From positions 1 through 64,000 of the forward strand of contig NZ_LT629757.1 of assembly GCF_900104965.1 (NCBI RefSeq): a stretch of 64,000 nt of DNA, given 5' to 3'. Both the position numbers and the translations under genes were made by a program. Of this stretch, positions 20,230 to 28,257 are shown piece by piece. Under the pieces are notes generated by a model. It saw only the letters and a program-made list of their open reading frames with translations, did no database searches and was not told the origin of the DNA. Within the stretch, counting starts at the first letter, position 1. Every line of letters starts with the position of its first letter. This DNA comes from Nocardioides scoriae (lineage in GTDB: Bacteria > Actinomycetota > Actinomycetes > Propionibacteriales > Nocardioidaceae).

Positions 20230-20726
20230 GTCGCGGTCCACGTGGCCAGGCGCTGACCGGTGCCGGCCCCCATCGAGGCGAGCAGCCGGGCGAACTCGCC
20301 GCTCTGGGCCTGCACGGCCAGCTCGCCGAGCCGGGCCTGCAGCACCCCCTCGCGGCGGCGCAGCTCGCGCAGCGCGGCGGGGCGCCCGCCCGGGACGGCG
20401 TACGTCGGCGCGCTGGTCGACGGGGTGGCGCCCCCCGGCACGGCGTCGACGAGCGTCGCGACGTGGGCGCGGTGCATCGACAGCAGCGGGACGAGGTCGC
20501 CGCGGGTCGCGGGGAAGGTGGTGACCGTGGCCCGCAGCGCGTCGACCATCGCGCGCACGGCGGCCAGCGCGGTGGTCGCCACGGCGACGTCGGGGGAGGG
20601 GCTCGCCGGCCGGCGGGGGCGGTCCTCGCCCAGCGGCGCGTCGACCGAGCAGCCGGTCACCGAGGCGGCGGCGAGCGCCGCGACCCCCGCGGTGCCACCG
20701 GCCAGGAAGCCACGACGGGAGAGCAC
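20226..20726 (-). CDS. Tat-dependent lipoprotein, partner of the DUF4439 protein
   Basis: A 166-residue protein starting with a twin-arginine motif (SRRGFLAGG) and a hydrophobic segment that ends in the lipobox VTGC (Cys26), so it is a Tat-exported lipoprotein. The mature part is Ala/Arg-rich and helical with an HRAH segment near the middle (LLSMHRAHVATLV); helical bundles of this kind resemble the ferritin-like fold of its neighbour, so the two may be related halves of one complex. It is divergent from rimP. Confidence 0.75.
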   Translation of the reverse strand: MLSRRGFLAGGTAGVAALAAASVTGCSVDAPLGEDRPRRPASPSPDVAVATTALAAVRAMVDALRATVTTFPATRGDLVPLLSMHRAHVATLVDAVPGGATPSTSAPTYAVPGGRPAALRELRRREGVLQARLGELAVQAQSGEFARLLASMGAGTGQRLATWTAT

Positions 20727-20781
20727 GCCGCGATCCTAGGCGGGCGCCGCCGCCGTGGCCGTCGCGACCCGTCGGGGGCGT

Positions 20782-20787
20782 TAGGGT
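20782..20787 (+). promoter_or_regulatory. -10 hexamer TAGGGT of the rimP-nusA operon
   Basis: TAGGGT 37 nt before the rimP ATG would give a leader of about 30 nt with the ribosome site GGGAGG at about 20811-20816. I see no convincing -35 box. Confidence 0.5.
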
Positions 20788-20824
20788 TGTCCCTCCACAA
20801 CAGCACAGCAGGGAGGTCTCGGAC

Positions 20825-21301
20825 ATGACCACGTCAAGCACCAGGGACCGCCTCACCGAGGCGCTGACCGAGCCGATGACCGCGCTCGGCCTCGACCTCG
20901 AGGCCGTCGACCTCTCCGCCGCCGGGAAGCGCAGCGTGCTCCGCGTGGCCGTCGACAAGGACGGCGGCGTCTCGATGGACGACATCGCCGAGGCGACCCG
21001 CGAGGTCTCGCGCGTCCTCGACGACGGCGACCTCATGGGGGAGCGCGCCTACACCCTCGAGGTGTCCTCGCGCGGCGTCGACCGCCCGCTCGCCCTGCCG
21101 CGCCACTGGCGCCGCAACGTCGGCCGGCTGGTCCAGGTCACCTTCGCCGACCCGGCCACCGAGGCCGTGACCGGCCGCCTGGTCTCCTCCGACGAGGACG
21201 GCGCCGGGCTGGAGGTCGACGGGAGCCCGCGACGGGTCTTGTTCGACGAGGTCGCGCGCGCCCAGGTCCAGATCGAGTTCACCAAGCACGAGGAGTCCTG
21301 A
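20825..21301 (+). CDS. rimP: Ribosome maturation factor RimP
   Basis: A 158-residue protein needed for maturation of the 30S subunit. It has the two-domain RimP layout: an N-terminal alpha/beta domain containing [15 protein letters not shown] and the Y(T)[12 protein letters not shown] motif at about 78-90, then a C-terminal SH3-like barrel. The ribosome site GGGAGG is about 8 nt upstream. Its stop overlaps the nusA start by one base (TGATG), giving the classic rimP-nusA coupling. Confidence 0.95.
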
Positions 21302-22275
21302 TGGACATCGACATGACCCTGCTGCGCATGCTCGAGCGCGAGAAGGAGATCCCCTTCGAGGTGCTCGTCGAGGCGATCGAGCAGGCGCTGCTGACGGCGT
21401 ACCTCCGCAGCACCGGGGCCCAGGAGAGCGCGCGCGTCGAGCTCGACCGCAAGAGCGGCCACGTCGTGGTGATGGCCCAGGAGACCGACGACGAGGGCAA
21501 CGTGGTCGGCGAGTTCGACGACACCCCCGCCGGGTTCGGCCGGATCGCGGCGACGACGGCGAAGCAGATCATGCTGCAGCGGCTGCGCGACGCCGAGGAC
21601 GAGCGCAAGTTCGGGGAGTTCCTCGGCAAGGAGGGCGACATCGTCTCGGGCCTGATCCAGCAGGGCCGGGACCCCAACGACGTCATGGTCGACCTGGGCC
21701 AGCTCGAGGCGCTGCTGCCGCCGGGCGAGCGCGTGCCGGGTGAGGACTACTCCCACGGCACCCGCATCAAGTGCCTGGTCGTGAGCGTCCGCAAGGGGAT
21801 GCGCGGCCCGCAGGTGATGCTCTCGCGCACCCACCCCAACCTGGTCAAGAAGCTGTTCGCCCTCGAGGTGCCCGAGATCGCCGACGGCACCGTCGAGATC
21901 GCCGGGATCGCGCGCGAGGCCGGCCACCGCACCAAGATCGCGGTCCACACCCGGGTGCCGGGCGTCAACGCCAAGGGCTCCTGCATCGGTCCGATGGGGC
22001 AGCGGGTCCGCAACGTGATGAACGAGCTGGCCGGCGAGAAGATCGACATCATCGACTGGTCCGACGACCCCGCGACGCTGGTCGGCAACGCGCTGAGCCC
22101 CGCCCGGGTCTCCAGCGTCACCGTGGTCGACGCGGCCGCGCGCTCGGCCCGCGTCGTGGTGCCCGACTTCCAGCTCTCGCTCGCGATCGGCAAGGAGGGC
22201 CAGAACGCCCGCCTCGCCGCCCGGCTCACCGGCTGGCGCATCGACATCCGCTCCGACGAGGCCTCGACCGACTGA
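21301..22275 (+). CDS. nusA: Transcription termination/antitermination factor NusA
   Basis: A 324-residue RNA polymerase-binding factor: N-terminal domain (1-110), S1 domain (about 110-185) and two KH domains (KH1 near 190-255 with [19 protein letters not shown]2 near 260-320 with [20 protein letters not shown]). The C-terminal acidic repeats of E. coli NusA are absent, as is usual in actinobacteria. It is coupled to rimP. The following gene is on the opposite strand (22291), which breaks the usual nusA-ylxR continuity. Confidence 0.97.
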
Positions 22276-22290
22276 GCCGCCGGCGCACCC

Positions 22291-23268
22291 TCAGGTCCGC
22301 GGCTGGCGCTGCCAGGTGGTGAGCACGGGCCGGTAGCCCGTGCGCGCCCAGAACGGCGCCGACAGCGGGTTCGTGGCGCTGTGGTGCAGGGCGACCGTGC
22401 GCACGCCGGCCGCCGCGGCGCGCAGGTGCACCGTCGCGGCCAGCGCCGCACCGGTCCCGCCGCCGCGGGCGGCGGGATCCACGTGGAGCAGCCCCAGGTA
22501 CGCCGTCGGCCCCTGCCCCACCGAGGTCGCGATCCAGTCGGAGTGCTCGGGCGGGCTGGCCCGGACCACCCCCACGACCGCGCCGTCGCGCTCGGCCACC
22601 CAGCTCCAGCCGGACCGGTCGGCCACGGCCTCCTCGACCTCGCGGCGCACGACCGGCTCGAGGCCGGTGCGCCGGGGCAGGATCCCGGCCCGGGTGTCGA
22701 AGGCCTGCACGGCCAGCGTGGCGGCGACGAGCGCCTCGACGTCGTCGCCGGTGGCGGGACGCACCCGCAGGCCCTCGGGCACCTCGGGCCGCTGCCGCGC
22801 GTCGGTCGTGGTGACCCGGCGCACGGCCGTCGTGGTGGTCGCGGCGAACCCCGCGACCAGCAGCGGCCGGGTGAGCACGAGGTCGCGGGAGGCGACGGTG
22901 ACCTGGACCGCGAGGTCGGGCGGCAGCAGGTCGCAGGCGCGGGCCAGCAGGTCGGCGAGCTCCTCGACGGGCTGCTCGTCCCCGGACAGGCGGAGCTGGA
23001 GCCGGCCGACGCGGTCCTCGCTCCACAGCGCCCCGGTGCCCCCGGCGTCGGTGGCCACGACGTCGACCAGCGCCAGCGCCCGTCCGTCCGGCGCCCGGAC
23101 CGCGCGGGCGTCCTCGCCCCGGAGGGGGGCCGGCACCCCGGCCAGGGGGTCGAGCGCCGCCACGCGACGCACGTGCGCGGCGTGGAGGGCGTCCAGGTCG
23201 TGCAGGTCGTGCAGGTCGTGCGGGTCGTGCGGGTCGCCCGGGTCCGGGAGGCGGGGTGCGTCGCTCAC
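22291..23268 (-). CDS. GNAT acetyltransferase with His/Asp-repeat N-terminus, inserted between nusA and ylxR
   Basis: A 325-residue protein with a C-terminal GNAT domain (about 165-320; LGLLHVDPAARGGGTGAAL carries the acetyl-CoA loop, and HHSATNPLSAPFWARTGY the last motif) and an N-terminal domain that may be a degenerate second GNAT fold. Its first 25 residues are a DPHD/LHD repeat made by 9-bp DNA units near 23200-23235, a length-variable and possibly metal-binding tail. The GTG start lies 6 nt after TAGCCT (23275-23280 on this strand). It faces against the conserved operon, so nusA and ylxR-infB need separate promoters. Substrate unknown. Confidence 0.82.
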   Translation of the reverse strand: MSDAPRLPDPGDPHDPHDLHDLHDLDALHAAHVRRVAALDPLAGVPAPLRGEDARAVRAPDGRALALVDVVATDAGGTGALWSEDRVGRLQLRLSGDEQPVEELADLLARACDLLPPDLAVQVTVASRDLVLTRPLLVAGFAATTTTAVRRVTTTDARQRPEVPEGLRVRPATGDDVEALVAATLAVQAFDTRAGILPRRTGLEPVVRREVEEAVADRSGWSWVAERDGAVVGVVRASPPEHSDWIATSVGQGPTAYLGLLHVDPAARGGGTGAALAATVHLRAAAAGVRTVALHHSATNPLSAPFWARTGYRPVLTTWQRQPRT

Positions 23269-23335
23269 CTCACCAGGCTAGGAGCCGGGTCACCCGCCGC
23301 TGACCATCGGGTTAGGGCTGAGGGGCGGCTGCGGC

Positions 23336-23341
23336 TAGAGT
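23336..23341 (+). promoter_or_regulatory. -10 hexamer TAGAGT of ylxR-infB
   Basis: TAGAGT ends 8 nt before the GTG of ylxR. It gives the ylxR-infB pair a promoter of its own, needed because the gene between nusA and ylxR is on the other strand. Confidence 0.5.
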
Positions 23342-23349
23342 GTCATGCG

Positions 23350-23679
23350 GTGGATTCACTGCTGGGCGACACACGACACGAGGACGGTCCCGTCCGGACC
23401 TGCGTCGGGTGCCGGCAGCGAGCCACCAAGCGTGAGTTGCTGCGAGTGGTCGCTCGCTCGGACTCCGACGACCAGGACGCCTCCTGGTCCGTCGAGCCCG
23501 ATCCGACCGGCTCCGCCGCAGGCCGTGGGGCGCACCTGCACCCCACCGACACGTGCCTGGCCCTGGCCGAGCGCAGTCGGGCCTTCGCTCGCGCCCTGCG
23601 CCACGACGTGCGGGGCCGAGGGGTCCTGCGCCTGGACCGGCTCCGGGAGCACCTCGCGGCCCGCACCACCACGAACTGA
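23350..23679 (+). CDS. ylxR: YlxR (DUF448) RNA-binding protein
   Basis: A 109-residue small basic protein of the YlxR family; in Bacillus subtilis the homologue modulates RNase P and is also called RnpM. The hallmark RTCVGCR is at 16-22, followed by ELLRVVA and the GRGAHLHPTDTCL segment. The GTG at 23350 follows TAGAGT by 8 nt. The normal actinobacterial partner infB lies downstream, separated by a 113-nt leader with three mini-ORFs. Confidence 0.92.
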   Translation: MDSLLGDTRHEDGPVRTCVGCRQRATKRELLRVVARSDSDDQDASWSVEPDPTGSAAGRGAHLHPTDTCLALAERSRAFARALRHDVRGRGVLRLDRLREHLAARTTTN

Positions 23680-23705
23680 CCGAACGAGAACGGGAGCATC
23701 CGCTC

Positions 23706-23720
23706 ATGAGCCTGCGATGA
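23706..23720 (+). CDS. Leader mini-ORF 1 (MSLR)
   Basis: Four codons and TGA; gggag lies 9 nt upstream. The product is unlikely to matter; the act of translation may. Confidence 0.45.
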   Translation: MSLR

Positions 23721-23734
23721 CGACTTCGCGATGA
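23717..23734 (+). CDS. Leader mini-ORF 2 (MTTSR)
   Basis: Five codons and TGA; its ATG overlaps the stop of mini-ORF 1 (ATGA), in a different frame. Confidence 0.42.
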
Positions 23735-23751
23735 GCATGCACATCAACTAG
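23731..23751 (+). CDS. Leader mini-ORF 3 (MSMHIN)
   Basis: Six codons and TAG; its ATG overlaps the stop of mini-ORF 2, in the third frame. Its stop is 8 nt before the infB leader hairpin. Confidence 0.42.
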
Positions 23752-23792
23752 CGGTTCGACCTCCTGGACGGGGTACGGACCAGGAGGAAAAC

Positions 23793-26714
<2,922 letters not shown>

Positions 26715-26751
26715 CCCTGCGCGACGCACGACCCGCGGCACCTCGCGTGGC

Positions 26752-26787
26752 GGCGGCGGTTCCCAGGTCCGCCTGGGAACCGCCGCC
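26752..26787 (+). terminator. Hairpin 1 between infB and rbfA
   Basis: Perfect 16-bp stem ggcggcggttcccagg/cctgggaaccgccgcc with loop tccg, 37 nt after the infB stop. A terminator or processing site is likely; there is no U-tract. Confidence 0.7.
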
Positions 26788-26790
26788 TGC

Positions 26791-26808
26791 CCGGTGTCGC
26801 AACACCGG
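26791..26808 (+). other. Hairpin 2 between infB and rbfA
   Basis: Stem ccggtgt/acaccgg with loop cgca, 3 nt after hairpin 1. Confidence 0.55.
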
Positions 26809-26815
26809 CTGAGTG

Positions 26816-26845
26816 GCGGTCTCCCGAGCGACCTCGGGAAACCGC
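26816..26845 (+). other. Hairpin 3 between infB and rbfA
   Basis: A 13-bp stem with one mismatch, gcggtctcccgag/ctcgggaaaccgc, loop cgac, ending 30 nt before the rbfA ATG. Its outline (GGTTTCCC, then GGTCG, then GGGA) resembles the palindromes at 12846 and 14072. Confidence 0.6.
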
Positions 26846-26875
26846 TCCCGGCCACGAACCAGCGAAGGAACCCCC

Positions 26876-27364
26876 ATGGCAAGCCCCCGCGTGCGCAAGA
26901 TCGCCGACCGGATCAAGGTCGTCGTCGCCGAGATGCTCGAGCGTCGCGTCAAGGACCCGCGTCTGGGGTTCGTCACCATCACCGACGTGCGCGTCTCCGG
27001 TGACACCCAGCAGGCCACCATCTTCTACACCGTGCTGGGCGCCGAGGCCGACCTCGACGGCACGGCTGCGGCCCTGGCCTCGGCGCGCGGCCTGATCCGC
27101 TCCGAGGTGGGCAAGCAGCTCGGCACCCGTCACGTGCCGACCCTGGAGTTCATCCACGACGCGCTGCCCGAGACCGCGCGCCAGATCGACGACCTCCTCG
27201 ACCGGGTGCGCGCCAGCGACGCCGACCTGGCCCAGAACGCCACCGGCGCGACGTACGCCGGCGAGCCCGACCCCTACCGGAAGCCCCGCGAGCAGGACGA
27301 CCTCGACGAGGACGACGCCGAGCGGGGCGACGAGGGCGACGCGCAGGACGACCCCCGGGCGTGA
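26876..27364 (+). CDS. rbfA: Ribosome-binding factor A
   Basis: A 162-residue 30S maturation factor with a KH-type fold. The N-terminal [32 protein letters not shown] (about 27-38) and the C-terminal [19 protein letters not shown] are family-typical. The last 30 residues are an acidic Asp/Glu-rich tail, common in actinobacterial RbfA. The ATG has AGGAA about 7 nt upstream. It overlaps truB by GTGA. It is separated from infB by three hairpins. Confidence 0.94.
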
Positions 27365-28257
27365 GCCCCGCCGCCGCGCGACCCGAACCGACCCCGGGCC
27401 TGGTCGTGGTCGACAAGCCCGGCGGGATGACCTCCCACGACGTCGTCTCCCGCGGTCGCCGGCTGCTCGGCACCCGCAAGGTGGGCCACGCCGGCACGCT
27501 CGACCCGATGGCCACCGGCGTGCTGGTGCTCGGCGTCGGCCGAGCCACCCGGCTGCTGGGCCACCTGCTGCTGTCCGAGAAGGCGTACGCCGCCACGGTG
27601 CGGCTGGGCGCCACCACCACGACCGACGACGCCGAGGGCGACCTGCTGGTCGCCCGGCCGACCGGCCACGTCACCGACGACGACGTGCGCCGCGTCCTGG
27701 CCGGCTTCGTCGGCGAGCTCGACCAGGTGCCGTCGGCGGTCTCGGCCGTCAAGGTCGACGGCAAGCGGGCCTACCAGCGGGTGCGCGACGGCGAGACGGT
27801 CGAGCTCGCGCCCCGCCGCGTCACGATCCACGACCTCCAGGTCCACGACGTGCGCCTCGGCGAGGACCACGTCGACGTCGACCTGTCGGTGCGCTGCTCC
27901 AGCGGCACCTACGTCCGCGCGATCGCCCGCGACGCCGGCGAGGCGCTCGGCGTCGGGGGCCACCTGACCGCGCTGCGCCGCACCTCGGTGGGGCCGTTCG
28001 GCCTCGAGGTCGCCCGCACCCTGGAGGAGCTGGCCGAGAGCCCCGGGGTGCTGCCCATCCACGAGGCGGCCCGGATCGGGTTCCCCGGCGTCGACCTCGA
28101 CGACGCCCAGGCCACCGACGTGCGGATCGGCCGACGCCTCGACCTCGACCTCGGCCACCCCGGACCGGTCGCCCTGTTCGCCCCCGGGGGTGCGTTCCTG
28201 GCGCTCTACGAGCAGGCGGGCGAGCAGGCCCGGGCCGTCGCGGTCTTCACCGGCTGA
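27361..28257 (+). CDS. truB: tRNA pseudouridine(55) synthase
   Basis: A 298-residue TruB that makes pseudouridine 55 in the T-arm of tRNAs. The catalytic aspartate is D48 in [11 protein letters not shown] (43-53), preceded by [11 protein letters not shown]; YxR-type residues and [15 protein letters not shown] are present, and a short C-terminal domain replaces a full PUA. The GTG overlaps the rbfA stop (GTGA). Confidence 0.95.

Follow-up and report, generated by a model that had tools for sequence, protein, structure and literature searches.

An overlapping mini-ORF chain and a conserved hairpin precede infB across sampled Actinomycetes and may tie IF2 synthesis to re-initiation

Introduction

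Why should an actinobacterial genome keep three overlapping reading frames of four to six codons in the short gap before infB, the gene for translation initiation factor IF2, and could they take part in setting how much of this factor is made? The question is raised by the infB locus of Nocardioides scoriae, contained in the 64-kb stretch of DNA analysed here (the window), for which a preliminary description had proposed that ribosomes passing through three mini-ORFs open a stem hiding the infB Shine-Dalgarno sequence (SD). IF2 is essential, and the class concerned includes major antibiotic producers and mycobacteria. As far as the available text of the respective reports goes, control of infB has been described at the level of promoter activity, mRNA half-life and cold-shock translational bias in E. 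coli (PMC6511841), the gene belongs to the SigR regulon in Streptomyces (PMC5472188), and M. tuberculosis shows pervasive translation that includes a large number of very short ORFs, infB being absent from the text available for this last work (PMC9094748). In the open-access literature, a scope outside which supplementary ribosome-profiling tables lie, we found no description of the infB mini-ORF chain, nor one of control of IF2 at its leader in this class.

Materials and Methods

We collected 310 infB loci from samples of the own genus, family, phylum and class, 80 named records being included in this number, and found the start codon in 307 of them (no usable start in L030, L266 and L229). 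No infB match was obtained at threshold in 11 of 393 class, 12 of 120 family and 1 of 24 genus genomes. Merging identical 150-nt leaders left 295 distinct sequences, or 290 after removal of five from other classes. The sampling is non-random: the class set was drawn from the best-scoring of the matches listed, 59 genomes were hand-picked to add families and genera, and the own genus is over-represented. A chain was defined as at least three mini-ORFs linked by RTGA or TRRTG overlaps, with the last stop 21-80 nt before infB; a looser count took the longest chain within 150 nt. Folding calculations used 278 of the 279 chain leaders of the latter count (one was dropped).

Results

The infB leader in the window

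The genes around the leader run in the order rimP (20825), nusA, a GNAT acetyltransferase gene on the opposite strand, ylxR and infB (Table 1), the identity of the last being confirmed by a Pfam IF2_N match. The acetyltransferase gene splits nusA from ylxR-infB and breaks the usual gene run. The gap between ylxR and infB measures 113 nt and holds the three mini-ORFs, each neighbouring pair of which has an ATGA in common, so that all three frames are occupied; on re-reading the sequence, the preliminary description of them proved exact at every coordinate. The perfect 8-bp stem that it had placed 8 nt past the last stop, with AGGAGG in the 3' arm, is likewise present (hairpin H_B). Two features go beyond that description, namely a GGGAG ahead of the first mini-ORF and a second hairpin, H_A, that shares bases with the SD-pairing stem. 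Read from the stop of mini-ORF3 onwards, the order is C-GGTTCG, CCTCCTGG, CGGACC and the SD, AGGAGG.

Table 1. Positions of the infB leader parts and neighbouring genes in the window
Feature	Position	Strand	Basis and remarks
nusA	21301-22275		
GNAT acetyltransferase gene	22291-23268	-	
ylxR (DUF448), upstream gene	about 23353-23679	+	Pfam PF04296, E 1.1e-20; stop TGA 23677-23679
GGGAG, Shine-Dalgarno-like	23692-23696	+	Sequence; 9 nt 5' of mini-ORF1 ATG
Mini-ORF1, MSLR, ATG AGC CTG CGA TGA	23706-23720	+	CGA-TGA end overlaps next ATG
Mini-ORF2, MTTSR, ATG ACG ACT TCG CGA TGA	23717-23734	+	ATGA overlap at each end
Mini-ORF3, MSMHIN, ATG AGC ATG CAC ATC AAC TAG	23731-23751	+	TAG 1 nt 5' of H_A 5' arm
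Hairpin H_A (conserved), GGUUCG / CGGACC	23753-23758 / 23776-23781	+	3' arm abuts SD
Hairpin H_B (SD-pairing, lineage-specific), CCTCCTGG / CCAGGAGG	23760-23767 / 23780-23787	+	Perfect 8 bp; incompatible with full H_A
infB Shine-Dalgarno, AGGAGG	23782-23787	+	Sequence; 5 nt before GTG 23793
infB, translation initiation factor IF2, GTG start	23793-26714	+	Pfam PF04760 IF2_N; 973-aa ORF

An 8-bp stem onto the SD arose by chance in 11 of 5000 shuffles. Taken by itself, a three-link chain is not very rare: two more, with GTG starts, occur in the window (60944 on the plus strand, 23307 on the minus strand). The genome itself, searched for ATGA-only triples, contains 46 matches to ATGA-N(4-25)-ATGA-N(4-25)-ATGA, and both links are in frame at infB only; in four other genomes of the class, a looser RTGA pattern with a fixed first spacing matched 58 times, 16 times with two in-frame links, and two of these 16 are infB leaders. 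Of the 14 two-link RTGA chains that lie away from infB (in G142, G181, G269 and G375), some could be further re-initiation leaders. It is therefore conservation, and not bare anatomy, that marks the infB chain as non-random.

Conservation of the chain

In this non-random sample, a chain of at least three mini-ORFs precedes infB in 280 of the 290 distinct class leaders, against 27 of 2900 shuffles, which leaves 10 leaders without a full chain; the looser count gives at least three linked mini-ORFs in 279 of 295 distinct leaders, against 125 of 5900 shuffles. Each of the 43 sampled family labels, which were assigned by hand, has at least one chain leader, and among leaders from other classes of the phylum a chain was found in 1 of 25. 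Chance as the source of the infB chain is rejected by the shuffles and these other-class leaders together. The single case from another class, L346, consists of four links with unlike peptides, and is either due to chance or an independent case. A separate oddity is a Streptomyces cahuitamycinicus record (L282), an IF2_N-like sequence without leader chain and possibly a paralogue.

Within the own genus, an infB match was obtained in 23 of 24 genomes, and every one of these 23 leaders has the series of ATGA motifs together with three or more chained mini-ORFs. In L002, L003, L006 and L012, mini-ORF2 is longer by a 15-nt insertion, which disturbs neither its frame nor the overlaps on its two sides. 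The impression, voiced in the preliminary description, that Streptomyces infB leaders carry a similar ATGA series was borne out, with MSTR, MSTR and MSTPMK as the chain peptides (L275). Other named examples are Mycobacterium interjectum (MSTP, VKSR, MTRIPMRYS), Corynebacterium pelargi (MSTR, MKHQR, MNVNAHR), Microbacterium paludicola (METK, VNGSK, MRPVRL) and Glycomyces terrestris (MKTTR, MKFSR, MNWLSVEG), each peptide being followed directly by its stop. Among these, the architecture stays constant while the sequences vary.

Reading frame, junctions and ORF lengths

Successive RTGA motifs, counted from 150 to 30 nt before infB at distances of 4-40 nt, are spaced with a remainder of 2 (modulo 3) in 563 of 642 cases (2:0:1 = 563:57:22), and in 415 of 473 when duplicates are merged (415:36:22). 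This is the spacing with which each ORF leads into the overlap that follows, and in the control, ATG without a following A, it is found in 6 of 42 cases. The junctions themselves are interchangeable: the longest chains contain 566 ATGA, 45 GTGA, 17 TGATG, 10 TAATG and one TAGTG, and in one family (f8) the first junction, judged by eye, is GTGA, TAATG or TGATG depending on the genome. An SD-like motif precedes the first mini-ORF in 109 of 213 distinct leaders and in 538 of 2130 shuffled ones. By eye, a GGAAGCAGGTCGAGA-like stretch before mini-ORF1 (23690-23705 in the window, and in relatives) is common to several families and is perhaps an extended SD.

The ORF lengths fall mostly on a few values, with 4 codons for the third-from-last ORF in 183 of 279 leaders, 5 codons for the second-from-last in 212 and 5-7 codons for the last in 249. 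Some of the longest chains (e.g., L179 and L108) open with an in-frame extension on the upstream side or with a start that is probably due to chance. The last stop lies 21-70 nt before infB throughout the 279 leaders and 36-55 nt before it in 253. The commonest peptides, MSTR, MSTQR and MSTPMK, contain no run of codons for one amino acid, as would be looked for in an amino-acid-sensing leader peptide, nor did 23200-23830 of the window show the intrinsic-terminator-like site that such an attenuator would use as alternative structure. In Rothia, Nesterenkonia, Kocuria and Micrococcus (L246, L247, L264, L286, L295 and L308), the last mini-ORF extends to 17-32 codons and the preceding two are short. 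A last ORF of at least 17 codons was found in 15 leaders, two of which (L179 and L108) look like wrong chain choices; H_A is present in 11 of the 15 and absent in 4, and begins 0-5 nt past the stop in 8.

At the RNA level, the chain region folds no more than shuffles do (z -0.14, 100 leaders), hence RNA structure does not account for its conservation. A structured RNA or riboswitch over the chain was rejected on this near-zero fold score and on the lack of an above-chance Rfam match, a search of 20500-27500 having returned, at E values of up to 1, three matches that fell well short of the gathering scores. Since the RTGA spacing is locked to the frame and the junctions can replace one another, selection appears to act on overlapping translation, and both sets of counts favour translation of the mini-ORFs and re-initiation between them.

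The same statistics bear on the idea that a protein binds repeated GAUGAG-like motifs and that the ORF chain is a by-product. ATGAG is indeed frequent at 11- or 14-nt spacing, and at 398 of 535 junctions the codon before the overlapped stop is CGA, yet the spacing tracks the frame, the junctions switch to GTGA, TGATG or TAATG, and Microbacterium, Glycomyces and Mycobacterium keep the chain with different sequences. A protein-binding sequence motif is weakened as a candidate by this frame-locked spacing and junction exchange, and we regard it as extremely improbable. The use of CGA as last sense codon before the overlapped stop (e.g., 23715-23720 and 23729-23734) exceeds what the overlap requires, and perhaps reflects slow decoding or the termination context.

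Hairpins before the infB start

Between the last mini-ORF stop and the SD, and ending just before the latter, the leaders carry a hairpin of the GGUCCG/CGGACC type, H_A, which reaches a score of at least 13 in 258 of 278 leaders, against 40% of shuffles, and of at least 15 in 233, against 21%. In 241 of the 258, with 0-9 nt allowed, its 5' arm starts 0-5 nt past the last stop; for its 3' arm, the search itself imposed the range, which reached from 11 nt upstream of the SD hexamer to 2 nt into it. All 23 own-genus leaders have H_A, and in mycobacteria its arms read GAGGCG/CGCCUC or GAGGUCG/CGACCUC. The stop-to-start segment as a whole folds better than shuffles (mean z -2.28, 120 leaders).

In an alignment of 119 leaders built without regard to structure, H_A positions pair in 78.1% of cells, compared with 70.8% when partners are shuffled and 20-55% when the arms are slid, and the slid controls weigh more, because shuffling leaves relatedness in. 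Changes on both sides number 72, against 32 (sd 4) after shuffling, and the covariation score is 0.265, against 0.150; none of 500 shuffles reached the observed value for pairing, both-side changes or covariation score. For the number of pairs with both-side changes (7 vs. 5.3) and that of further pair types (22 vs. 19.1), 41 and 37 of the 500 shuffles, respectively, came up to the observed value. The two outer pairs fail to form in 85 and 64 sequences, and the signal sits in the six core pairs. Judged by these sequence comparisons, the chain and the hairpin together constitute a real leader element that has been conserved in the class as sampled.

For the SD-pairing stem the outcome is different. 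A strong H_B was found in 26 of 278 leaders (9.4%, vs. 1.9% of shuffles), and at a lower score the share is 18.7% (vs. 14.4%). Of the two features whose conservation was to be checked according to the preliminary description, the mini-ORF chain thus stands and the SD-pairing stem does not; even in the own genus, where it is a real feature, the latter is strong in 7 of 23 leaders, and the hairpin that all 23 share is H_A. An attenuator that sequesters the SD would entail a conserved SD-pairing stem, which the 26 of 278 leaders do not provide, and the predicted accessibility of the SD across the 278 leaders is the same as in shuffles. As a general device, the SD-pairing stem was rejected by the stem search and by partition-function calculations of SD accessibility with and without a ribosome.

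Nor did the folding calculations bear out a systematic opening of the SD by a ribosome at the last stop, the mean unpaired probability moving from 0.56 to 0.59 in the leaders and from 0.54 to 0.59 in shuffled ones. Occluding the first 13 nt past the last stop opens the SD in 57 and closes it in 33 of the 278 leaders (20.5 and 11.9%, compared with 17.0 and 5.8% of shuffles), and across these leaders SD accessibility singles out neither sign of regulation.

These numbers also weigh on the main rival to a leader that feeds infB, namely negative feedback with a logic like that of GCN4, in which traffic on the chain would repress infB. With IF2 plentiful, mini-ORF3 would be completed, H_A broken and the SD paired in the lineages that have H_B, or ribosomes would be consumed upstream; with IF2 short, H_A would fold, the SD would be free and infB would be translated. 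H_A does stand beside the SD and not over it, and most folds inspected by eye leave the SD unpaired. The enrichment of H_B at high score and the doubled share of leaders in which occlusion closes the SD fit as well, as do the folds of the window leader, where the best fold of the segment holds H_B (-17.8 kcal/mol), excludes the full H_A and is close in energy to the best fold with H_A (-15.6 kcal/mol). Autogenous control of initiation factors is, moreover, known in general. Against this, 252 of the 278 leaders have no H_B at high score, the enrichment at lower score is slight, and occlusion opens the SD in more leaders than it closes. Negative feedback suits the H_B lineages, and for the class we consider it unlikely.

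Discussion

That the chain controls infB translation in cis, in one direction or the other, is probable. We hold with moderate confidence that it does so as a cis-acting termination-re-initiation relay, of either sign, that makes IF2 synthesis dependent on IF2. Several results speak against it: predicted SD accessibility equals that of shuffles and shifts in no systematic way on occlusion, two of the five covariation measures were matched by some shuffles, an SD-like motif stands before only 109 of 213 first mini-ORFs, two-link chains occur away from infB as well, and some leaders lack a full chain (10 of 290) or, with a long last ORF, H_A (4 of 15). Within the available text of the sources, a mycobacterial reporter has shown that ribosomes re-initiate at an AUGA overlap (PMC11260477); for E. 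coli, overexpressed IF2 is described to raise and overexpressed IF3 to lower re-initiation, which also needs features of the initiator tRNA (PMC2268962). Since re-initiation in E. coli depends on IF2, the likeliest reading of the leader is a relay through which IF2 synthesis would follow the capacity for re-initiation, and sensing of IF2 by it is plausible by analogy.

In such a relay, a ribosome would start at mini-ORF1 and terminate after 4 codons at a TGA overlapping the next ATG, so that re-initiation would be needed for mini-ORF2 (5 codons) and again for mini-ORF3 (about 6 codons), the stop of which lies at the foot of H_A. With about 12 nt downstream covered by a terminating ribosome (a value cited in the available text of PMC4833913), the ribosome there would cover the 5' arm of H_A. 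We infer from the IF2 dependence in E. coli that, with two re-initiations in series, the number of ribosomes arriving at mini-ORF3 would vary steeply with IF2 activity. In the positive version, this traffic would feed infB, the ribosome melting or passing H_A or crossing its base to the SD beyond, and IF2 output would be the product of several initiation steps dependent on IF2 and fMet-tRNA. We lean tentatively towards this version. It would yield more IF2 when IF2 is plentiful, a positive feedback that is unusual for a housekeeping factor. Translation of the mini-ORFs, their linkage by re-initiation and the effect on infB translation, including its sign, are read from anatomy and evolution, on which the link to termination-re-initiation coupling is also founded.

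Two further accounts would explain the chain otherwise. The chain could be a constitutive booster that senses nothing, catching ribosomes like an antenna so that they load close to infB and the leader stays under translation. In the available text of Korolev et al. (2016; PMC4833913), leader genes, those of Actinobacteria included, are proposed to enhance translation of the gene that follows through re-initiation. For such a purpose one mini-ORF near the start codon would suffice, yet the leaders retain three whose lengths vary little, and their last stop is mostly 36-55 nt away from infB (253 of 279 leaders), compared with 10-11 bp in that survey, which makes a mere booster distinctly unlikely. 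Alternatively, translation of the chain could shield the nascent leader from Rho or pausing, with H_A as a pause or protein-binding hairpin. Published mycobacterial work, in its available part, deals with premature termination and translated uORFs, and the segment containing H_A is stably folded (z -2.28, 120 leaders); but no intrinsic-terminator-like site was found in 23200-23830 of the window, and covering 45 nt with ribosomes needs no exact frame overlaps. Transcription control of this kind is, in our judgement, very unlikely.

The re-initiation relay has parts in common with several known systems. In the pairs described for termination-re-initiation (TeRe; Huber et al., 2019, PMC6728339; uPPE2-PPE2, PMC11260477), in the text available, ATGA or TGATG overlaps link neighbouring ORFs, as they do between the mini-ORFs here; the infB leader differs in having three serial ORFs of about 4-7 codons and a hairpin, mostly 36-55 nt before an infB that is not itself overlapped by an upstream ORF in any of the 279 leaders (last stop 21-70 nt upstream). 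The leader genes surveyed in Actinobacteria (Korolev et al., 2016, PMC4833913) are alike in having a short upstream ORF and a proposed re-initiation, whereas that survey allows each gene no more than a single leader ORF and reports a spacing peak at 10-11 bp, and infB occurs 0 times in its available text. The rimP-leader of the rimP-nusA-infB operon (PMC2965389) also lies within an infB-containing operon, but, from the text available, is a short terminator motif before rimP, and 20500-27500 of the window gave no Rfam match above chance. In the ribosome shunt of plant pararetroviruses, as far as described in the available text of PMC5902531, a short ORF stops before a stem and the start site lies beyond it; here too the stop comes directly before the stem (241 of 258 leaders) and, within the range imposed by the search, the start site directly beyond, but in the viral case the ribosomes are eukaryotic and scan, and the structure is far larger; the likeness is one of geometry. 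Shared by nearly all sampled members of the class, the arrangement suggests, from the comparison of leaders, an ancient switch, apparently not described before, that acts on a core component of translation.

In eukaryotes, GCN4 is preceded by a series of short uORFs, and re-initiation on them depends on delivery of the initiator tRNA. Its uORFs are separated and served by scanning 40S subunits, whereas those of the infB leader overlap, with an SD before the main gene. It is conceivable, though to us somewhat doubtful, that the leader is a class-wide sensor through which IF2 reads its own activity, serial initiations on overlapping ORFs of 4-6 codons amplifying small changes in re-initiation into a steep change in ribosome arrival at the hairpin that sets infB, as a bacterial counterpart of the GCN4 type, possibly with a shunt-like crossing. 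The mini-ORFs, too short for stable proteins, predict ribosome footprints on frames of 4-7 codons that the usual annotation misses. Present in every sampled family label, the leader would offer a natural test of re-initiation in bacteria, and would also test whether cells gauge their own initiation capacity.
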